From Pseudomonadota bacterium (GTDB lineage: Bacteria; Pseudomonadota; Gammaproteobacteria; Acidithiobacillales; Acidithiobacillaceae), in NCBI GenBank assembly GCA_021821885.1, contig JAKARO010000003.1:1-64000 (forward strand): a stretch of 64,000 bases of DNA. Direction: 5' to 3'. The stretch's first letter is position 1, and each line of letters starts with the position of its first letter. The notes beneath the pieces were generated by a model. That model ran no database searches and was not told the origin of the DNA. It saw only the letters and a list, made by a program, of their open reading frames with translations. Shown in pieces: positions 6,260-19,966 of the stretch. Both the position numbers and the translations under genes were made by a program.

Positions 6260-7381
6260 ATGCCTCCAGCAACAACTGTGGTGGGTGTGTCTGCGCGTAT
6301 GGATACGGGCCCGGGAAAGATTCCAATGCAGAAAGTCTGGACCGTGGTGGATACGGGATTGCGGCCTGCCGATGAAAACATTGCGATCGACCAGGCCATT
6401 CTCCGGACCACGGGAGAAGGCCTTACAGGTCCTGTTTTCCGTTTTTTACATTTCCAGGAATGCGCTCTGCTGGGATATCACCAGTCAGCTGCCCAGGAGC
6501 TGGATCTGGACTTCTGCCGGGAACAGGGCATAGAAGTCCAGAGACGGATGACGGGAGGCGGGGCCATCATATTCGATCCCACCCATCTTGGCTGGGAGAT
6601 CGTTTGTCCCCGCGACCTGCTTCCGGCCGGGGACATGACGCGCCTGTCCGAAGAAATCTGTGAAGCGGCAGTCCTTGGGCTATCGGCACTGGGTGTCCGC
6701 GCGCAGTTCCGTCCACGGAATGATATTGAGGTGGAAGGCAGAAAACTTTCTGGAACTGGCGGGATACTGGACGGTAAGGCGCTTCTGTTCCAGGGGACCG
6801 TGCTGGTTGAGCTGGATATTCCACGCATGCTGCGAGTTCTCCGCGTCCCAGCGGAAAAACTGGACGCGCATGCGATCGCCAGCGTGGCCGAGCGGGTCAC
6901 GAGCCTGCGCACTCTGTTGGGGAAGACCCCTGCCGTGGAGGAGGTCCAGAGCGCGCTGCTCTCTGGGTTCCGGGAACACTTTGGCTGGCGTATGGATTGG
7001 TCAGCATCTCTCCCGGATGCGGTATGGGACCGCTTTCCCGAAGCGTTGAAGACGATACGCAGCGCTGAGTGGCTTGGGGTGCAGGACCGGCCCCGTGAGG
7101 AGCTCCCGTTCCGGCAGGCGGTGCTGCGGACCCCTGGTGGAACCCTGCGCGCCAATATTCTCTGGGATACCTTCGGAAAAAGGATCAAACAGCTCCACTT
7201 TTCCGGCGACTACTTTATCCAGCCGCGCCGCGCTGTGGTTGATCTGGAAGCGGCCCTGCGTAATGCCCATATCCAGGATGTGGATGGGGTCGTACAGGCC
7301 TGGTTCGAGCGTGGGCAGATCGATGCATTCGGTCTTGAACCCTGCCATTTCGTTCAGGTTCTCCGGCAGGCGGTCGCCTGA
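6260..7381 (+). CDS. Lipoate:protein ligase of the sLpl(AB) type
   Basis: An LplA-fold ligase, expected to activate lipoate or octanoate and load it on LbpA. Catalytic landmarks are intact: RRMTGGGAI at residues 95-103 and NDIEVEGRKLSG, with lysine K162 at the acyl-adenylate site. The 373 residues include a C-terminal domain (TPGGTLRANILWDT), so the A and B parts may be fused. The first ATG touches the lipS1 stop; ATG 6299 or 6326 are alternative starts because the first ~20 residues look non-conserved and no clear ribosome site is seen. Confidence 0.87.
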   Translation: MPPATTVVGVSARMDTGPGKIPMQKVWTVVDTGLRPADENIAIDQAILRTTGEGLTGPVFRFLHFQECALLGYHQSAAQELDLDFCREQGIEVQRRMTGGGAIIFDPTHLGWEIVCPRDLLPAGDMTRLSEEICEAAVLGLSALGVRAQFRPRNDIEVEGRKLSGTGGILDGKALLFQGTVLVELDIPRMLRVLRVPAEKLDAHAIASVAERVTSLRTLLGKTPAVEEVQSALLSGFREHFGWRMDWSASLPDAVWDRFPEALKTIRSAEWLGVQDRPREELPFRQAVLRTPGGTLRANILWDTFGKRIKQLHFSGDYFIQPRRAVVDLEAALRNAHIQDVDGVVQAWFERGQIDAFGLEPCHFVQVLRQAVA

Positions 7382-10160: not shown

Positions 10161-11420
10161 ATGAAGAATAAAGCGGGGTTGATTGTGCTGGCAGTTTCAG
10201 CTGCGCTGGCAGCCGGATTTTCAGGGAGCGCCATGGCCACCAATGGCTACCAGCTCATTGGTATAGGCCAGTATGCTGTTGGTATGGGTGGTGCCGTGGT
10301 GGCGGCTCCGGATGATCCACTTTCTGCCGCTATCAGCAATCCAGCGGGTCTGGCGAATATCCGTCCCCAGGCAGCCTATTCCGCAGAAATTTTTAACCCG
10401 ATACGTAAAACCAATTTTGGATTTGGCGAATTTGGAAGTCACAGCAATGTCTATGGTGTACCGGCCATAGGATGGGTGGCGCCGGCTTTTGGAGATGGCA
10501 TTGTATTTGGTGGTGGGGTATACGGATCTTCTGGCCTTGGAACAAATTATTTGCAGTCGACGCCCTATGGTACCATCCAGGCCTACAGCAATATCATGTT
10601 TATGCAGATGGCACCTTCTCTGGCGATGAAAGTCAACCATCATCTTTCTTTGGGTGTGTCGCTTAATATTTCTGCAGAACAGGCCTCTTTCCAGCAGACA
10701 TTTGGTGGGGCTGGCCTCAATCTTGCCAGTCCTTCCTGGGCTTATGGTGTAGGTGCGACAATAGGTGCGCTCTATAAGGTGAACAATATGGTCACGCTGG
10801 GGTTTACCTATAAAACGCCTATCGCCTTTACACCGCTGACATGGCAGGAGACTGGCCAGGAAGTCCCAACTGGTCCGGGTACCTTCCTCGCCGGGAATGC
10901 GGGCCAGTACAGCGGCCATCTCAATTACCCACAGCAGATAGCACTGGGTCTGGCTATCCGCCCCATTCCGCAGTGGCTGATCAGTGTTGAAGGGCAGTGG
11001 ATCAACTGGCACGCGACCATGAACAACTTTACCATTTATGGACCGTGGAATGGGCCCAACAGCATTGCCCTCCCAATGCACTGGAAGAATGAATGGGTAG
11101 CAAATATTGGTACCCAGTACGATGTAAACCACTGGCTGCAGGTCCGTATGGGTTATGCCTACGGGACCAATCCAATCAGCAGCAGCAATATTGGGAATAA
11201 CCTGATTTTCCCGGCCATTGTGGAAAATGCCATTACCTTTGGTTCGACCCAGAAGCTGGGTATGGGATGGAAACTGACCGAAGCGTATATGCATGAATTT
11301 AGCAATACCGTAACTGGCACATCGCCTTTTGCACAGGTTTTTCCGCCCAATTCTCTGCAGCCCGCAAGTGCGACCCTGTCCGAGAACTCTTATGGTATCC
11401 AGGTCGGTTACGATTTCTGA
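10161..11420 (+). CDS. Outer-membrane channel, OMPP1/FadL/TodX family
   Basis: A 419-residue outer-membrane beta-barrel. A signal peptide (residues 1-26, basic start, hydrophobic core, cleavage after SAMA) is followed by the FadL-type N-terminus ATNGYQLIGIGQYAVGMGGA and by AISNPAGLANI. The C-terminus ends in aromatic F (GIQVGYDF), as barrels do. Family members import hydrophobic compounds; next to a sulfur-oxidation locus, uptake of hydrophobic or polymeric sulfur is possible but unproven. GGGGCGGAG precedes the ATG. It is monocistronic, with its own promoter and a strong terminator. Confidence 0.88.
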   Translation: MKNKAGLIVLAVSAALAAGFSGSAMATNGYQLIGIGQYAVGMGGAVVAAPDDPLSAAISNPAGLANIRPQAAYSAEIFNPIRKTNFGFGEFGSHSNVYGVPAIGWVAPAFGDGIVFGGGVYGSSGLGTNYLQSTPYGTIQAYSNIMFMQMAPSLAMKVNHHLSLGVSLNISAEQASFQQTFGGAGLNLASPSWAYGVGATIGALYKVNNMVTLGFTYKTPIAFTPLTWQETGQEVPTGPGTFLAGNAGQYSGHLNYPQQIALGLAIRPIPQWLISVEGQWINWHATMNNFTIYGPWNGPNSIALPMHWKNEWVANIGTQYDVNHWLQVRMGYAYGTNPISSSNIGNNLIFPAIVENAITFGSTQKLGMGWKLTEAYMHEFSNTVTGTSPFAQVFPPNSLQPASATLSENSYGIQVGYDF

Positions 11421-11446: not shown

Positions 11447-11480
11447 GGGGGAGACGGGAAACCGTCTCCCCCAATTTTTT
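11447..11480 (+). terminator. Strong terminator after the fadL-like gene
   Basis: An 11-bp perfect stem GGGGGAGACGG / CCGTCTCCCCC is capped by a GAAA tetraloop and followed by AATTTTTT. Such stability suggests an abundant transcript. Confidence 0.9.
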
Positions 11481-11570: not shown

Positions 11571-11960
11571 ATGAAAAGTATCCCCATCGCTGATGTAAGC
11601 AGTATCCGTAATGAGCTAAACCGTTATAAGAGAGGGAAAAAGCTGGAGATTCCACGGTTCAACCAGGTGGCCAGGATGGCCTATCTGGGCCACCTGGTGA
11701 TGTCTCCCCTGGATCCTGAAGACACGGAGTGCCAGTCCTTCCTGGTCCACTTGCAGGAGCCCAAGGGGCTGGCGGCCCATTTTATCGAACTGGATGAGGA
11801 TCTCCGGGATGCCATTCTTGTCCTGGACGGGGAACAGGCCATGGCGATGGCAGCGATCATGCAGCAGGGTGTTCAGGACCGGGCCCGATGGCACGAAGAG
11901 CTGAACCAGCGCGATTTCTACTTCAGCGCGTTCTACCGTCCAGGGCAAAAGGCGGAATAG
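11571..11960 (+). CDS. Small protein of unknown function
   Basis: A 129-residue protein I do not recognise. It is charged and probably helical, with a conserved-looking core (VARMAYLGHLVMSPLDPEDTE, LQEPKGLAAHFIELDEDL) and a C-terminal helix containing QGVQDRARWHEELNQRDFYF. No signal peptide or membrane segment. The ATG at 11571 has only a weak ribosome site; a TTG at 11553 would add six residues. It ends 15 bases before the lipoate-ligase-like gene, so the two are probably co-transcribed. Confidence 0.65.
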   Translation: MKSIPIADVSSIRNELNRYKRGKKLEIPRFNQVARMAYLGHLVMSPLDPEDTECQSFLVHLQEPKGLAAHFIELDEDLRDAILVLDGEQAMAMAAIMQQGVQDRARWHEELNQRDFYFSAFYRPGQKAE

Positions 11961-11975
11961 ACTCTTCTGGAATCC

Positions 11976-13019
11976 ATGCAGTTGGGAACGGTTTCAGGAA
12001 AAGCCCACCCGGGAGCATTACGGTTTCTTTACTTGGGTCACCTGCCGGCCGACAGTCTGCACCGTTCCTATGCCGGTCTGGCTGAGGCACGACAGGCCGG
12101 TGATCCGCCGCTGCTGCTTCTTGCCACAGCCGATACCCACCTGACGGTCGGGGCTGCCCAGACGGCGGGTGCCGAGCTGGACTTCGATTCCTGCCAAAGG
12201 CTACAAATTCCGGTAATCCAGCGAGGTCTTGGCGGTGGGACCGTCTGGGTAGAGCCTGCCCATCTCAATTATTTTCTGATGGCAGGTTTGGGTTCTCCCT
12301 TCCGCCGCCCCCAGGATCTCCTGAATGCATTTGCACCCGCTTTCCTGTCTGTGCACCGCCATTTTGGGCTTGATGTCCAGATGGTGGGGGGGCAGGATTT
12401 CACCTGTGCAGGGCGTCGGATTGGGAGTACGGGTGCCGCGACTCTTGGCAGAAGCCTGGTGCTGGGAGGGAGCTTCCTTCTTGCCGGGGAATGGTCAACT
12501 TTTACCGAGGCTCTTGCTGTACCCTCTCCTGGGTTTCGGGTCTGGGTCCTGGAAGCGTTGGAGCAGCTCATGACGACCTGGGATGCAGAACTGGGAAGAA
12601 CGCCTGCGCCCGGGCTGGTCATGGAAAGACTGCATCAGGAACTGGCGGAGCTGGGCTGGGAAATTGTTGAATCCTGCCCTACGGAGCTGGAGCTGGAGGC
12701 CATGGAGGCTGTGGAACTGGAGATGCCTGACTGGACAGCATCGGCAGGCCGGCGGGTCCCCTGCGGGATCAAAGTGCGCCTGGACAGTTTCCTGACCGAA
12801 AGGCGGTGGGGGAGGAACTTTTTGCGCATCTGGACGGAAAATGGGTGTTTCCGGCGGATTGCCGGGACGGTTTTCCCGGAGGAGCTGGAAGAGGCCATTG
12901 CAGGACTGCAAAAGGATTCTCCAATGCTCGATCTCCTTCTTGAAAGATATCTGGGCCATGGTCCGGCTTCTCTCTGGCGGGAGCGCATCCGGTCCTTGGC
13001 AGTCTGGACGGATATTTAG
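11976..13019 (+). CDS. Lipoate-ligase-fold protein lacking the catalytic lysine
   Basis: A 347-residue LplA/BPL-fold protein. It keeps the substrate loop as QRGLGGGTVW (residues 82-91), but at the acyl-adenylate site it reads CAGRRIGSTGA: R148 stands where the active ligase of the sHdr locus has K162 (GRKLSG). The usual NDI before that site is GQDF here. It is therefore probably not a normal ligase; options are a lipoyl/octanoyl-binding chaperone, regulator, transferase using C144, or decaying paralogue. A C-terminal domain of about 120 residues is present. It lies 2.4 kb downstream of the lipoate-assembly genes. Confidence 0.75.
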   Translation: MQLGTVSGKAHPGALRFLYLGHLPADSLHRSYAGLAEARQAGDPPLLLLATADTHLTVGAAQTAGAELDFDSCQRLQIPVIQRGLGGGTVWVEPAHLNYFLMAGLGSPFRRPQDLLNAFAPAFLSVHRHFGLDVQMVGGQDFTCAGRRIGSTGAATLGRSLVLGGSFLLAGEWSTFTEALAVPSPGFRVWVLEALEQLMTTWDAELGRTPAPGLVMERLHQELAELGWEIVESCPTELELEAMEAVELEMPDWTASAGRRVPCGIKVRLDSFLTERRWGRNFLRIWTENGCFRRIAGTVFPEELEEAIAGLQKDSPMLDLLLERYLGHGPASLWRERIRSLAVWTDI

Positions 13020-13036
13020 TATTTGCGAGGTAATGT

Positions 13037-13414
13037 ATGCCCAGTATTGATGACCGGCTGAAAAAACGCGTACTCTGGATAGGCAGTGACCAGGAGCTGG
13101 TGGCAGACGCCAGGTCCGTGCTGCCGGAGGGTTGGCAACTGAATTCCGGCGGCAGCCTTGGGGATTTTGGGGAATGGCAGGATATCCTGCTTTACCGTTT
13201 CCTGGTGCTGGATCTGGACGCTGAGCTGGCCGAAGACCCTGTAGAGATAGTGGATACGGTCCGCCGGGAATACCAGATAAATATTCCAATTTTCTGTTAT
13301 GGGGGACGCCCGGATCAGCGTGCGGCTGCGCGTTCTGCCGGGGCAGACAGGTTCTTCGAACGGAGCGAGATTCTCCTGCGCCTGCAGGATTTTGTCCGCC
13401 AGTTTGGCTGGTAA
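13037..13414 (+). CDS. Degenerate receiver-domain protein (pseudo-receiver)
   Basis: A 125-residue single-domain protein with the CheY-like alternation: beta-strand KRVLWIGSDQE, then FLVLDLDAEL, then IPIFCYGG, then AGADRFFERSE. An aspartate is present at the phosphoacceptor strand (D59 or D61). The switch Thr/Ser is replaced by YGG, and the invariant Lys-Pro position reads FFER, so phosphorylation signalling is doubtful. The ATG at 13037 has GCGAGG upstream. It follows the ligase-like gene by 17 bases and is probably in its operon. Confidence 0.6.
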   Translation: MPSIDDRLKKRVLWIGSDQELVADARSVLPEGWQLNSGGSLGDFGEWQDILLYRFLVLDLDAELAEDPVEIVDTVRREYQINIPIFCYGGRPDQRAAARSAGADRFFERSEILLRLQDFVRQFGW

Positions 13415-13462: not shown

Positions 13463-13786
13463 TCAGCCAACTTTTGCGTGGGCTTCGGTATCCAGAAGGA
13501 TATCTCGGCTTTCGGTCTGCCCGCCACCCTCGGCAGTCAGGGTAGCAATGCGTACGCCAGCATCCCTGAATGAAATTTCGTAGGAAAATACTCCAGGCAG
13601 GGAGATTGAGGCTTCCTTCAGGGTCTTGCCTTCGCAGGTTACGGTTACCCTGGCTGAGCCACTGCCTTCCAGCATGGCCTGGATCCGGAAAGGATGGCCT
13701 GCAACCCGGCGGTAGACCTGGGGGTCGCGATTGGTGTTGTACTGCAGGTTGTTCAGCTTGACCATCTTGATGAGATTCGCGCTCAT
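13463..13786 (-). CDS. Small beta-rich protein of unknown function
   Basis: A 107-residue protein encoded against its neighbours. Its composition and alternation (HPFRIQAMLEG, ARVTVTCEGKTL, FSYEISFRDAGVRIATLTAE) suggest an Ig-like or SoxZ-like beta-sandwich, but it lacks the SoxZ signature and I do not assign a function. No signal peptide. AAAGGGG stands upstream of the ATG. It shares a 120-base divergent intergenic region with the gene in front of cbbQ. Confidence 0.6.
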   Translation of the reverse strand: MSANLIKMVKLNNLQYNTNRDPQVYRRVAGHPFRIQAMLEGSGSARVTVTCEGKTLKEASISLPGVFSYEISFRDAGVRIATLTAEGGGQTESRDILLDTEAHAKVG

Positions 13787-13907
13787 GAAAACCCCTTTAA
13801 TCGCACCATAAAATTGGTTTCGGAGAATTTTGGGTAAAACAGCCTTATCCTAGATGAATGCCGTAGAAAAGAATAGTTTTGGGTGGCCAAACAGAAAGAG
13901 GTACGAA

Positions 13908-14315
13908 ATGGGCGATCGAGCACTTGCCCTGGAGCGTCTGGATAGGCTTCAGGAAAGAATTGAAACGCTGGCCGGCCAGCAGCGGTGTCCGGATGCCGCA
14001 GAGCTGTCCGTGCTGGTGGACAAGGGGCTGCAAATCGCCCGGGAACTGCTGATGGCCGTTCTAGAGGAGGAACACCGGCCGTACGATCTCTCTGCAGATC
14101 TGCTGGAACTCTGGAAATCCCTGGTCAGGGGCGCACCACACTGGAATACCATTCGCGACAACTGCCGGGAATTGGTCTATTACCGCAACTGCCTGGACAT
14201 GAAACAGATGGATGCACTGCCGCACGGACCTGAGAAAATGCTGGTCCACACCCTGCGCCATCTGTACCTGTATCTGCGTAGCCATATGGAACAGTCGCTG
14301 GAGGAGAAGTCATGA
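13908..14315 (+). CDS. Small helical protein preceding cbbQ
   Basis: A 135-residue helical protein with no motif I recognise. The ATG at 13908 has AGAAAGAGG in front and is preferred over the ATG at 13854. Leucine- and arginine-rich stretches ([16 protein letters not shown]) suggest a coiled coil or bundle. Its stop overlaps the cbbQ start by 4 bases (ATGA), which makes translational coupling with the AAA+ gene likely. Confidence 0.65.
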
Positions 14316-15139
14316 GCCATCATGTCCAGGCACATCCAGACAGGCAGCTCCGTTATGTCACTGCAGAACCTTTCTATCAGCCAGTGGGAAGCGAAGTAGG
14401 GGTTTTTATGGCCGCCTGGAGCCGGAGGCTTCCTGTAATGCTCAAAGGTCCGACGGGATGCGGGAAAACCCGTTTTCTTGAGCACATGGCCTGGCGTCTG
14501 AAGCGCCCGCTCATAACGGTTTCCTGCCATGAGGACCTGACGAGCTCGGATCTCGTGGGCCGTTTCTTGATTGAGGGGGATGCAACCGTCTGGCAGGATG
14601 GTCCACTGACCCGTGCCGTACGGGAGGGCGCAATCTGCTATCTGGATGAAATCGTTGAGGCCAGAACCGACACAACCGTTGTCATCCATCCGCTGACCGA
14701 CCATCGCCGCCATTTGCCCATCGACAAGCTGGGTACGGAAATTGCCGCCCATCCGGATTTTCTGCTTGTGATTTCCTACAATCCCGGGTACCAGACTGTA
14801 CTGAAAGATCTGAAACCTTCCACCAAGCAGCGTTTTGTCGGGATGAATTTCAGCTATCCATCGCCAGCAGTGGAATCCGGGATTGTCATGAAAGAGGCCG
14901 GGATAGATACCCGTCGTTCTGCCAGGCTGGTTGAGGCCGCTGCGCGTGCCCGGAATCTTAGGGATCAGGGATTGCAGGAGGTAACTTCCACGCGTGCTCT
15001 TGTCTATGCAGGCACGTTAATGGCAGCGGGTCTGGAGCCCATGGAAGCGGTCGAGGCGGCGATTGTCAGTCCGCAGACGGATGACGTCGAACTGGCCTCT
15101 GCCCTGCGGGAGATTTTTCAGGCCTTTTTCCCTGACTGA
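14312..15139 (+). CDS. cbbQ: CbbQ/NorQ-family MoxR AAA+ ATPase
   Basis: A 275-residue MoxR-type AAA+ ATPase of the CbbQ/NirQ/NorQ family. Walker A is GPTGCGKT (residues 46-53), Walker B is [10 protein letters not shown] with D112-E113, and sensor-type ISYNPGYQ follows. Together with CbbO such ATPases form Rubisco activases in autotrophs, while NorQD matures nitric-oxide reductase. No Rubisco or nor gene is present in the window, so the client is unknown. It starts by a 4-base overlap and is followed 8 bases later by the VWA partner. Confidence 0.87.
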
Positions 15140-15147
15140 GGTGATGC

Positions 15148-17640
15148 GTGCCAGCGCAGACAGAGGAAATACTTGAACACCTGGATGCCATCAGCTTTGT
15201 GGCCGGCCGGGACGCACGGGCGGCTCTCCCGGCAGTTGGCCATCTGGGGGATTCTGCCTGTCTGCGTTACCTGGAGGCCGGACGTGACCTGTTTTTCTAC
15301 GACCGGGAAGCAGGTAAGGCCTTTTTCCATGCTACCCCGGATCTTGTCCGGGCATTTGGTGGTCTGGAGCCCTGGCTGGACCAGTCACGGATTTTTCTGA
15401 CCCAGCGGGGCACGTTCCGTGCCGCCGTGGGATATTTTGGGCAGGCTGCGGCTGTGCGGGAGCATTTCGGTCCCGAAGGGGAAAAACTGTGGTATGGACT
15501 AGGTTCTGAGTGGATCCCGCGCCATGTCGACAGTGCCGCCGCCTATTTCCAGATGCCTGTTGCCACGCTGGTTGGAGCCTTTCCGGTCGGGGAGCTGGAA
15601 CGTCTGGTGGCGCCGGCCCGGGAACTGGCCAGTGGCCGGCCCGGGTTGGCTACCTATCTGGAAGGGGCGGTACGGGTCCGGGCCATTTGCGGCCTGGACG
15701 GCATTGCGGAATGGGCATGGCGCGGAAAAGATGTTCTGGCGGCAGGCCGGATCCGTGGCGAGGCCTGGTACCGGCTGGAAAGCGACGAGGCGCGGAGTTT
15801 TGTACTGGACATGCTTCCAGGGTTTCATCTGGGTCCGCACAGGCGGCTTTTCACACTGCTTTTGCAGGCATGGACCGGATTGGCTCTCCCCTTCGAGGAT
15901 GGAGCGTGGAGCATGGAGGGTGGCCGGGCATTTCTGGAAACAGACGGACGCAGCCTCTTTGTCCCCGCCGTGATGCCGGACCGGGAGGAGGCCATTCTGG
16001 CGCTATACCATACCGGTGCCCATCTGGCCTTTGGAAGTTATGACCAGGATGCCATTCATGCCCTTTTCCGGGAGATCGGCATGGAGCACCCGCCGCTGGA
16101 TCCCGGGCAGCGTATTACCTGGCGTCCCCTATTTGCCAGATTTGGCGGCGACCTGCTCCGCTTCCAGCTGGTTTTCGACCTGTGCGAGGACCTCCGGGTA
16201 GACGCAGCCATGGAATGCAGAATGCCAGGCTATCTGGACCGCATTCTGGCGGCCGCCAGCCGCCAGCCGGTTCCTGCAGGAGCAGCTGGTGCATATTGGA
16301 AGGAAGCGGTACGTTTTCTGGATGACTGCCTGCGAGGTACCGTGGATGAGGACCTAAAGCCACTGCTTTCTCCTGGAGCGGGGATTCTGGAATCCTTCCG
16401 GGTGGCCCTGGGCCGGTATGCCACCACAGCGCTCCCTGCAATTACCATGGCCGAACGTCCGGCAGCCTTCCTGCCTGGACATTCCCCCAATGCTGCCAGA
16501 CCTGTCTATCCCCGCCATGGGGGCGCGGCCGTGCCTGTCGACCTGGATGACGTTGCCCCCCCTGGAGCTAGCGGACCGAGGGAAAAGCCGCGGGAGATCC
16601 CGCAGCAGGCGGATGGCAGCGATGCCGATCTGGAAATTCCGCCAGAAGACCTGCAGGGCCGGGGGGGTCGGGTTGGCGTAGGGATCCCTATTCCTGCAAA
16701 GGCGAACGGTTCCGGCAGGGGAGTGAAGGGGCCGGCTGGCGGGTGTCCGTATCCGGAATGGGACTATCGGCAGCAGCGGTACAAGGAGGGGTGGGCCCGG
16801 GTGCATGAGAGGAAACTGGCAGAGCGGGATGGAATCCGTGCGATGGCCATTGCCTCCGAATATGAAGGGACCCTGCGCCGCCTGAAAAAGGCCCTGCAGG
16901 CCCAGAAACCGGCGCGAATGGCACCCCTGCGCCGCCAGTACGACGGAGATGAGCCGGATATTGATGCGGCCGTCCAGTTTGTGGTGGAACGCCGGGCTGG
17001 ACACAGTCCCCGTTCCAGCATTTACCGGCAGAGACGTCCCCAGCGCCGGGATACCGCTGTTCTGCTGCTTGCGGATCTCTCAACATCTATCATGGCGGAG
17101 GCCGGAGATACGGGGGTCCGGGTTGTCGACCGCCTCCGTGCAGCCATGATGCTTTTTGGTGAGGCCCTGATGGAAGTGGGGGATCCCTTTGCACTCTATG
17201 GATTCGCCAGCAAATACCATCATGAGGTACTGCTGTATCCCATCAAGCGGTTTGAGGACCAGTTCGATAGCCAGGTGCGTGCGGTCCTGGGTGGCCTGAG
17301 TGGGCGGCTGGCTACGCGCATGGGAGCAGCTGTCCGCCACGCAACACGCCAGATGGTCCGGAATCCGGCACATCACCGTCTTCTCCTGATCCTGTCGGAT
17401 GGCCGTCCGGCTGATTACGATGACGGCGGGGATCCCCGGTATCTCCAGGAAGATACCCGAATGGCCCTGCGCGAGGCGCAGGATCACGGCGTGCACGCCT
17501 TCTGCATCAGCCTGGATCCGGGAGGCGGGGAATACCTGCCACGGGTTTTTGGGCAGGGACACTATCTGGTGCTGTCCCATATTGACCACCTTCCAGCCCG
17601 GCTTCCAGAAATCTATTTGCGTCTGCGGGGGCATGCATGA
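15148..17640 (+). CDS. cbbO: CbbO/NorD-family VWA-domain protein
   Basis: An 830-residue partner of the MoxR ATPase. The C-terminal von Willebrand A domain carries the MIDAS motif DLSTS (about residues 642-646) and DGRPADYDDG further on. The first ~450 residues are the helical CbbO/NorD part, and a low-complexity Pro/Gly linker lies at about 455-545. In CbbQO complexes CbbO bridges the ATPase hexamer to its target by a metal-bound acidic residue on the client. Start is GTG after GAGGTGAT. It overlaps the deacylase gene by 4 bases. Confidence 0.83.
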   Translation: MPAQTEEILEHLDAISFVAGRDARAALPAVGHLGDSACLRYLEAGRDLFFYDREAGKAFFHATPDLVRAFGGLEPWLDQSRIFLTQRGTFRAAVGYFGQAAAVREHFGPEGEKLWYGLGSEWIPRHVDSAAAYFQMPVATLVGAFPVGELERLVAPARELASGRPGLATYLEGAVRVRAICGLDGIAEWAWRGKDVLAAGRIRGEAWYRLESDEARSFVLDMLPGFHLGPHRRLFTLLLQAWTGLALPFEDGAWSMEGGRAFLETDGRSLFVPAVMPDREEAILALYHTGAHLAFGSYDQDAIHALFREIGMEHPPLDPGQRITWRPLFARFGGDLLRFQLVFDLCEDLRVDAAMECRMPGYLDRILAAASRQPVPAGAAGAYWKEAVRFLDDCLRGTVDEDLKPLLSPGAGILESFRVALGRYATTALPAITMAERPAAFLPGHSPNAARPVYPRHGGAAVPVDLDDVAPPGASGPREKPREIPQQADGSDADLEIPPEDLQGRGGRVGVGIPIPAKANGSGRGVKGPAGGCPYPEWDYRQQRYKEGWARVHERKLAERDGIRAMAIASEYEGTLRRLKKALQAQKPARMAPLRRQYDGDEPDIDAAVQFVVERRAGHSPRSSIYRQRRPQRRDTAVLLLADLSTSIMAEAGDTGVRVVDRLRAAMMLFGEALMEVGDPFALYGFASKYHHEVLLYPIKRFEDQFDSQVRAVLGGLSGRLATRMGAAVRHATRQMVRNPAHHRLLLILSDGRPADYDDGGDPRYLQEDTRMALREAQDHGVHAFCISLDPGGGEYLPRVFGQGHYLVLSHIDHLPARLPEIYLRLRGHA

Positions 17641-18818
17641 ACGAGGCAGATTTTCTGTGTCCACAGATTCCACCCACCCGGACTGCCGTTTTTGTGGGGG
17701 AATCACGCTACCGCCGGGCGAGTTATGGCAGCAACCATCCCCTGGCCATTCCACGTGTCTCCCTCACGCTTGACCTGCTCAACGCCTACGGTGCCATGGG
17801 TCCGGAGGAATATGTTACAGGGCGTCCTGCCAGCCACCAGGAGCTTTGGGGATTCCATGGCCGTGATTACATTCTGGCCTACGAGCGTGCCCAGTTCCGG
17901 GGCAGGGTTACGGAACCGGACCGGCGGCTCTTCCATCTTGGCACACTGGAAAATCCATATTTCCCCGGGTTTTTTGATACCCCCAATCTTGCCGCAGGAT
18001 CCAGTATCCTGGCCGCAGAATGGGTCCTCAAAGGAACTTCCGCCTTCAGTCCCTCTGGGGGAATGCATCACGCCGGTCCCCATCAGGCAAGAGGTTTCTG
18101 TTATCTGAATGATCCGGTTCTGGCCATCCAGCGCCTTCGGAAAGAAGGTTTGCGGGTGCTCTACTGGGATATGGATGCCCATCATGGGGATGGTGTGGAG
18201 GCGGCATTTGTGGAAGATACAGATGTGCTGACAGTATCTATCCACATGGACACTAGCTATGCCTACCCCTTCCGGGGGGGGGATATTGGGGACTGTTCCG
18301 GGGGAGCGGTCAACATGCCCCTGCCTCCGGGAATAAACGACAGTGAATATGGGCTGGTATTCAACCGGCTCTGGCCAGAGGTTTTGGTGCGGTTTTCACC
18401 GGATGCTGTGGTACTGCAGGCCGGAACCGACATTCTGGCTCCTGACCCGCTCAGCCGGTTTCAAGTCAGTAACGTCTGTTTCTGGAGCATGGTACGCCGT
18501 ATCGTGGAAGACAGTCCACGCCTTCTGGTGCTTGGGGGAGGGGGATACCACCCGGTTGCTCTGGCCCGCTGCTGGGCGGGTGTCTGGGCCATACTTAGCG
18601 GCCGCCGGCTCGGGGATCTTCTCCCGGAGAGCGGAGTGGCCCTCCTGAGATCAGTTGACTGGGAGCTGGATGATGAGGAGGTACCCGACTACTCTGACCA
18701 GTTTGTCCATCTGGAAGATCTTCCCCGGAAGGGGCCGGTCCGTCCCCAGGTCCAGGCAGCGCTACAGCAGCTTTTCCAGGAACATCCCCTGCTTTCCCCA
18801 AGGAGTATTCAGGCATGA
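17637..18818 (+). CDS. Class I histone-deacetylase-like deacylase (AcuC-like)
   Basis: A 393-residue zinc-dependent deacetylase/deacylase of the HDAC superfamily. The catalytic set is complete: GGMHHAGP (H144, H145), GFCYLND, the metal site DMDAHHGDG, QAGTDILAPDPLS, and the tyrosine loop LGGGGYHP. Bacterial members remove acetyl groups from lysines (AcuC acts on acetyl-CoA synthetase) or from small amines. No acs gene is adjacent; it is coupled by 4-base overlaps to cbbO upstream and to the aldo/keto reductase downstream. The true substrate is unknown. Confidence 0.85.
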   Translation: MNEADFLCPQIPPTRTAVFVGESRYRRASYGSNHPLAIPRVSLTLDLLNAYGAMGPEEYVTGRPASHQELWGFHGRDYILAYERAQFRGRVTEPDRRLFHLGTLENPYFPGFFDTPNLAAGSSILAAEWVLKGTSAFSPSGGMHHAGPHQARGFCYLNDPVLAIQRLRKEGLRVLYWDMDAHHGDGVEAAFVEDTDVLTVSIHMDTSYAYPFRGGDIGDCSGGAVNMPLPPGINDSEYGLVFNRLWPEVLVRFSPDAVVLQAGTDILAPDPLSRFQVSNVCFWSMVRRIVEDSPRLLVLGGGGYHPVALARCWAGVWAILSGRRLGDLLPESGVALLRSVDWELDDEEVPDYSDQFVHLEDLPRKGPVRPQVQAALQQLFQEHPLLSPRSIQA

Positions 18819-19966
18819 CTGCCCAGACCTCCCCTGGTTTCCTGATTCCTGGTGCTGCGACCAGCCTGGCTACCAAGGCCTATGCAGCCAGGCATGTGGA
18901 GCAGTTGCCTGAGGGACACTTTAGTGATTTCCTCAATACCCGGATCAAGCTTTCCTCCTTGGGGGTGGGCACTTTCCCGGGGCCAGTGGATGAAGTGACG
19001 GATTTGGCGGTTGCGGCAATTGTGGCGCAGGCGCTGCAGTCAGGTATCAATGTCGTTGACACTGGCGCCAATTACCGCTACGGGCATGCGGGTCGTGCGG
19101 TGGGAGCCGGAATTTCCAGGGCCATGTCCGCAGGGATACGGCGCGAGGAATTTTTTGTGATTGGGAAAGGTGGGTTCCTCACTTTTCCGGATGGGCGCCC
19201 CCAGGACCTGGGGCAGTTTTTCCGGGATCAGGTGGTGGCCAAGGGGTTCGGGAAAGAGGAGGATCTGGTTCAGGGAGTCCACTGCCTTAGCCCGGAATAT
19301 CTGTCCTGGCAGCTGGATGAACTTCGCAGCCAGATGGGACTCGAGACACTGGATGTTTTTCTGGTAGACCAGCCGGAAGTGCATGTGCCGGCCATAGGCA
19401 AGGAGCAGATGCACCGCAAGCTTCTGGCGGTTTTTGCCATGCTGGAGGATGCGGTAGCGGCAGGCAGGCTGCGGTATTATGGCATTTCCACTTTCCATGC
19501 CTGCCGTGTGGAGACGGACAATCCGCTGTTCCAGTCGATGACCAGTTTGCTGGGTCTGGCGGAAAAGGCGGCTGGTGAAGGGGGCCGGCACCACCTGCGG
19601 GTGGTGGAGCTTCCATTTAATGCCCTTATGCCCGAGGCTTATACTAGGTTCAGCCAGGTGACAGGACAGGGCAACATTGGTTCGACCATACAGGCCGCCT
19701 TTCAGCTAAAGCTTACAATAATGGCAAGCCATCCCCTTGGTAAGGGGATCCTGGCACGGGAGGGAATCCCTGCCCTCGGTGCAGCCATGCCGGATCTGGC
19801 CAGTCCGGCCCAGAGGGCCATGCAGTTTGTACGCTCTACTCCGGGGATTGCGGTAACGCTGGTGGGGATGAGCAGCCCCCTGCATCTCGCCGATGTCCTG
19901 GCCGTGGCACAGCAGGCTCCCTTGGACCGCGACAGGTATCTGGCCCTGTTTGAAAGGGAAAAATAG
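18815..19966 (+). CDS. Aldo/keto reductase-like protein with altered catalytic site
   Basis: A 383-residue TIM-barrel protein of the aldo/keto reductase superfamily. VVDTGANYRYGHAG supplies the Asp and Tyr of the tetrad and VIGKGG the Lys. Where active enzymes have His in LLHNP, this protein reads LVDQP, so the histidine is replaced by Asp. A C-terminal cofactor region (AVTLVGMSSPLHLADVLA) is retained. It starts 4 bases inside the deacylase gene, so the HDAC-like protein and this one form one translational unit. Function unknown. Confidence 0.78.
   Translation: MTAQTSPGFLIPGAATSLATKAYAARHVEQLPEGHFSDFLNTRIKLSSLGVGTFPGPVDEVTDLAVAAIVAQALQSGINVVDTGANYRYGHAGRAVGAGISRAMSAGIRREEFFVIGKGGFLTFPDGRPQDLGQFFRDQVVAKGFGKEEDLVQGVHCLSPEYLSWQLDELRSQMGLETLDVFLVDQPEVHVPAIGKEQMHRKLLAVFAMLEDAVAAGRLRYYGISTFHACRVETDNPLFQSMTSLLGLAEKAAGEGGRHHLRVVELPFNALMPEAYTRFSQVTGQGNIGSTIQAAFQLKLTIMASHPLGKGILAREGIPALGAAMPDLASPAQRAMQFVRSTPGIAVTLVGMSSPLHLADVLAVAQQAPLDRDRYLALFEREK

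Follow-up and report, generated by a model that had tools for sequence, protein, structure and literature searches.

The locus studied here encodes, close to the lipoate-protein ligase sLpl, a second LplA-type protein, pLpl, with an arginine at the position of the catalytic lysine. Is pLpl a ligase, a protein that binds a ligand without catalysis, or neither, and does it belong with the lipoate assembly genes beside it? The sHdr literature describes an LplA-like ligase and radical-SAM lipoate assembly proteins (PMC6067878, PMC10332631). In the main texts of the articles on sHdr lipoate assembly we found no mention of pLpl or of the two genes flanking it, h135 and pREC, and a literature search gave no paper on pLpl.

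Gene content of the locus

The window, i.e. the whole stretch of 64,000 nucleotides analysed (GCA_021821885.1, contig JAKARO010000003.1, positions 1 to 64,000), encodes up to position 11420 sHdr genes, two LbpA genes, a DsrE-like gene, LipS1, sLpl, a geranylgeranyl-reductase-like gene that is probably LipT, LipS2 and a FadL-type porin. The span 11571-13414 consists of three open reading frames on the same strand, h135, pLpl and pREC (Table 1), separated by gaps of 15 bases (h135/pLpl) and 17 bases (pLpl/pREC). The terminator-like stem-loop between fadL and h135 suggests that the three genes may form a separate transcript.

Table 1. Features of the window discussed in the text
Feature	Position	Strand	Remarks
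sLpl, lipoate-protein ligase of the locus	6260..7381	+	GRKLSG intact
Terminator-like stem-loop between fadL and h135	11447..11472	+	11 pairs, then a T run; consensus match only
h135	11571..11960	+	Small protein, no family in Pfam or NCBIfam; constantly paired with pREC
pLpl	11976..13019	+	LplA-type two-domain protein, altered active site
RGLGGG acyl-adenylate loop of pLpl (R83-G88)	12222..12239	+	Alignment with neighbouring ligase and E. coli LplA
R148 codon of pLpl	12417..12419	+	Opposite catalytic K133 of E. coli LplA in the alignment
pREC, pseudo-receiver	13037..13414	+	No switch Thr/Ser; Lys replaced by Arg
h107, small conserved protein	13463..13786	-	First gene of the block h107-h153-Q-O-HDAC-AKR flanking pREC

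A conserved block at 13463-19966 encodes h107 (negative strand), h153, a MoxR/CbbQ-like ATPase, a VWA protein, a histone-deacetylase-like protein and an aldo/keto-reductase. Parts of this block are also present without h135, pLpl and pREC in Betaproteobacteria, e.g. Sulfuriferula. We used h107 as a marker in contig searches for further loci. Profiles of h107 and h135 gave no convincing match to solved structures, and no plasmid match was found. The 1.74 Mb assembly that contains the window encodes three LplA-B_cat proteins: sLpl, pLpl and a 235-residue protein that is probably LipB.

Fold and active site of pLpl

The preliminary description took pLpl for a paralogue with the lipoate ligase fold, and three lines of evidence agree with this. 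The Pfam LplA-B_cat domain is found with 67.2 bits, above the curated cut-off of 27, the AF2 model has a pLDDT of 94.6, and Foldseek ranks 1-30 are all lipoate ligases or lipoyltransferases; LipB structures also appear among the Foldseek matches. Identity to the ligase at 6260-7381 is 27% (E=4e-14). In the alignment, GRRIGSTG of pLpl is placed opposite GRKLSGTG of sLpl, and R148 takes the position of K133 in E. coli LplA.

The substrate loop had been described as reduced to RGLGGG. This is incorrect, as the loop has the same length in both proteins (QRGLGGGT in pLpl, RRMTGGGA in sLpl) and differs by substitutions only. One of these is T to L relative to the sLpl loop, at L85, the position of S72 in E. 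coli LplA. R83 and G86-G88 of the RxxGGG loop are invariant across all aligned rows of pLpl, sLpl and a further set of LplA proteins, group 'o', introduced below.

Proteins of the LipM, LipL and LipB type share the fold superfamily with pLpl, but pLpl has no conserved Cys nucleophile of its own. We found no catalytic Cys of the LipM/LipL type in pLpl; across the family only C73 is near-invariant, and it is common to the sLpl ligases. A LipM/LipL-type acyltransferase was therefore rejected.

Distribution of the lysine across the family

Residues were counted in 64 aligned pLpl sequences, 54 from outside the window's genus and 10 from within; the latter represent approximately seven genomes, as some genomes were entered under two locus identifiers. 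The genus is one that we infer to be Igneacidithiobacillus-like. Position 148 is K in all 54 sequences outside the genus and R in 10/10 within, and R is also found in an eighth genome of the genus (L010). Position 151 shows the same division, with G in 54/54 and S in 10/10 (G151S). D93E is fixed within the genus, with two exceptions outside, Q96H follows the same genus split with two exceptions, and D141 is replaced by E in 7 of the 10 sequences. The RxxGGG loop is retained in all 54 members outside the genus, and the basal members keep the ligase-like motifs RRETGGG and NDLW.

Loss of the lysine is thus one genus-specific change of the active site and not a property of the family. The earlier statement that the catalytic lysine is missing stands for the window and its genus, where R148 occupies the K133 site, and fails for the rest of the family. 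The idea of a pseudoligase family was rejected on these counts, since all 54 members outside the genus keep both Lys and loop.

Ancestry and selection

In the phylogenetic tree, the 35 pLpl rows form one clade (support 100/99) that is nested in group 'o' of LplA and separate from sLpl. We therefore rejected pLpl as a duplicate of sLpl (6260-7381), and the descent from this neighbouring ligase implied by the preliminary description does not hold. The tree requires one K-to-R change within pLpl and one within group 'o'. By Pfam, the members of group 'o' are ordinary LplA catalytic domains. This group is the nearest relative of pLpl, and the two share GRKIGGTGAA and a C-terminal GIK/GVK...LTE segment. 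Unlike pLpl, group 'o' is also present in three genomes without sHdr, and we found no sHdr neighbours of its genes in the three loci inspected. The TIGR00545 model (LplA equivalog) gives 34 bits for the window's pLpl and 148 and 89 bits for group 'o'; sLpl itself reaches only 134.8 bits, all of these being below the cut-off of 280, so the model discriminates poorly. An unlinked, otherwise canonical LplA-like protein (L095:9218-10291) carries an independent Lys-to-Arg change (GERRIGGTG).

We estimated dN/dS by the method of Nei and Gojobori, with dS being high in some genes. Between the window and its nearest relative the values were 0.24 for pLpl, 0.07 for h135 and 0.06 for Q. Two other members of the genus gave 0.23 for pLpl and 0.07 for sLpl, and two Lys-bearing members gave 0.28 and 0.13, respectively. 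Hence, pLpl is under purifying selection with or without the lysine, although none of the other genes compared showed so little constraint. The values within the genus (0.23-0.24) led us to reject a decaying pseudogene.

Co-occurrence with sHdr genes

In the window's family, 28 of the 29 genomes searched encode pLpl, a count that includes the window's own genome. The two remaining genomes of the order also have it, as do Thioalkalivibrio, Acidihalobacter and further sulfur oxidisers. Among 369 genomes of the class, 17 encode pLpl in the h135-pREC setting and 22 encode sHdrB2 (E up to 1e-60). Of the 17 pLpl genomes, which span ten family codes in a count that ignores kinship, 16 carry sHdrB2; the exception is G364, a 75% complete genome that encodes LipS2. 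The proposed link to the lipoate assembly genes is borne out by this co-occurrence. A search for pLpl genomes lacking an LbpA/lipoate locus did not refute it either, as every genome found to encode pLpl also had sHdr or LipS genes. A functional tie of pLpl to the sHdr/LbpA/lipoate locus is thus supported.

Wherever the sequence covers both sides of pLpl, the gene has h135 on one side and pREC on the other. Linkage of the block to the sHdr locus is usual but not obligatory, since in G049 (L034, L035) the complete h135-to-AKR block is located approximately 190 kb from the sHdr-lipoate locus.

The receiver-like protein and h135

The preliminary description of pREC as a receiver-like protein without the switch Thr and the invariant Lys proved correct. 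The AF2 model (pLDDT 93.5) has a receiver fold, common to stand-alone receiver domains such as 3lte, its best PDB match (TM 0.76); Pfam gave no match. In contrast to such receivers, the switch position is Phe, Tyr, Leu or Ile in 24/24 aligned pREC members, the beta-5 Lys position is Arg in all 24, and the phospho-acceptor Asp is not strictly conserved (D in 19, N in 4 and S in 1).

Of 35 further genomes tested, 18 gave matches to h135, and these same 18 also gave matches to pREC; each of them carries sHdr or LipS genes. For one of the 18, G396, pREC is matched only weakly (55 bits) by a protein encoded on a different contig, which could be an ordinary receiver. Within the class, h135 and pREC are present in 20 of the 22 sHdrB2 genomes, including four of the window's order, and four of these 20 (G135, G219, G323 and G235) have no pLpl. 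Ectothiorhodospira and Acidiferrobacter-like loci have h135 and pREC adjacent and no pLpl, several of them beside lipoate genes; these are loci L110, L111, L140, L142-L145, L150, L153, L156, L157 and L159. In a sample of 398 genomes of the phylum, h135 occurs in two, both sHdr-positive, and five other sHdr genomes do not have it. The constant partner of pREC is accordingly h135 rather than pLpl. The supposed pairing of pREC with pLpl is not upheld, as the h135-pREC pair persists without pLpl.

Two side observations concern genomes without pLpl. G135 (L103), which has sHdr genes, h135 and pREC, gave no match to LipS2 with E up to 1e-40. All four genomes of the class sample with h135-pREC and without pLpl carry group 'o', an anti-association that is uncorrected for kinship and is not relied on here.

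Comparison with known ligases

The fold of pLpl is that of canonical LplA from E. coli and Thermoplasma. With the sLpl or sLpl(AB) ligases (PMC6067878, PMC10332631) it shares the Pfam catalytic domain, the locus and the RxxGGG loop; it differs from sLpl by its separate clade, L for T in the loop, GTGAA for GTGG and, in the window's genus, the absent lysine. The sLpl homologue of Thioalkalivibrio, described as having no small domain, needs no second ligase to modify both LbpA1 and LbpA2 in vitro (PMC6067878). We also considered that pLpl could supply the small domain to sLpl in trans; this was set aside because the Thioalkalivibrio ligase is active alone (PMC6067878), a further point being the weak C-terminal LplB match in sLpl of the window. 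The PDB titles among the Foldseek matches include a related biotin ligase with a mutated lysine (K111A), crystallised with biotinyl-AMP. By analogy, ligand binding without catalysis is plausible, although this is no proof for pLpl.

Possible function of pLpl

Based on the observed fold, alignment, clade, residue distribution, selection, co-occurrence and gene order, we suggest that pLpl represents an LplA-type ligase subfamily, undescribed to date, that was recruited to the sHdr-LbpA locus next to h135 and pREC. As a second, accessory ligase-type protein, it would act on lipoyl or octanoyl adenylate destined for an acceptor of the sHdr system, probably LbpA; the intact RxxGGG loop together with the sHdr association makes this the most likely ligand and acceptor. 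In most lineages, where Lys and the adenylate loop are kept, pLpl is predicted to be catalytic. In the window's genus, the adenylation site would have been remodelled once (K148R, G151S, D93E and partly D141E). Judging from K148R and its companion changes, normal adenylation has most likely been lost there, being poor or nil, and the acyl group or adenylate is most likely still bound via the intact loop.

We hold this reading, an sHdr-dedicated second ligase-type protein with probable catalysis in most lineages and an altered or non-catalytic form in the window's genus, only tentatively, at slightly less than an even chance. In its favour are the two-domain LplA fold, the well supported clade within canonical LplA with a single K-to-R change, the split of K148 and G151 by genus, the invariant R83 and GGG, the ligase-like basal members, the dN/dS values of 0.23-0.28, the restriction of pLpl to genomes with sHdr or LipS genes, in ten family codes, and the fixed order with h135 and pREC. 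Against it, an sLpl homologue modifies both LbpAs alone (PMC6067878), so that the need for a second ligase is not evident; moreover, pLpl is the least constrained gene (0.23-0.28 compared to 0.07-0.13 for sLpl) and is absent from several sHdr lineages with h135-pREC.

The arginine itself may be compatible with activity. An active ligase with slower or altered chemistry, or with a changed acyl substrate, would fit the independent K-to-R change in the otherwise canonical L095 protein and a dN/dS in the R-lineage that is not above that of the K-lineage. However, K148R is joined by G151S, D93E and partial D141E at invariant or nearly invariant positions, which goes beyond a tolerated swap, and we regard this as somewhat unlikely. 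That pLpl is a pseudoenzyme in one genus only, binding lipoyl-LbpA or octanoyl-AMP and, with pREC and h135, tuning or assembling sHdr while its orthologues elsewhere are ligases, appears unlikely. Extending the pseudoligase to the whole family, as a sensor or chaperone for lipoyl-LbpA or octanoyl-AMP that works with pREC, would draw on K148R in the window's genus, the sHdr link and the pseudo-receiver nature of pREC; with the catalytic Lys kept everywhere else and h135 as the constant partner of pREC, this is very improbable.

The ligase fold could also be a mere scaffold in all lineages, with pLpl as a structural component of a complex that also includes h135 and pREC. Its position between these two genes wherever both flanks are present, and its faster evolution compared to the lipoate genes, are consistent with this. 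Unless ligand chemistry is involved, it is difficult to account for the strict conservation of the Lys, Asp, Gly and GGG loop in 54/54 sequences outside the genus. As h135 and pREC also persist without pLpl, we consider a scaffold quite unlikely. Finally, clade-specific loss of active site residues and the lowest constraint in the block could be signs of a functionless gene decaying in the window's genus. The open reading frame is open, dN/dS is 0.24 against the nearest relative and 0.23 between two other members, and pLpl is retained in every member of the genus searched, making decay extremely improbable.

Implications for the sHdr pathway

Sulfur oxidation by the sHdr-LbpA pathway is widespread, and the lipoate assembly set described in the article texts consulted ends at sLpl, LipS1, LipS2 and associated genes. 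To these our analysis adds a linked group of three genes that follow sHdr in Gammaproteobacteria, one of them encoding a protein with an LplA fold. The active site change in one genus is a natural experiment: comparing a Lys-bearing with an Arg-bearing orthologue would tell whether it is catalysis or binding that the pathway requires of pLpl.
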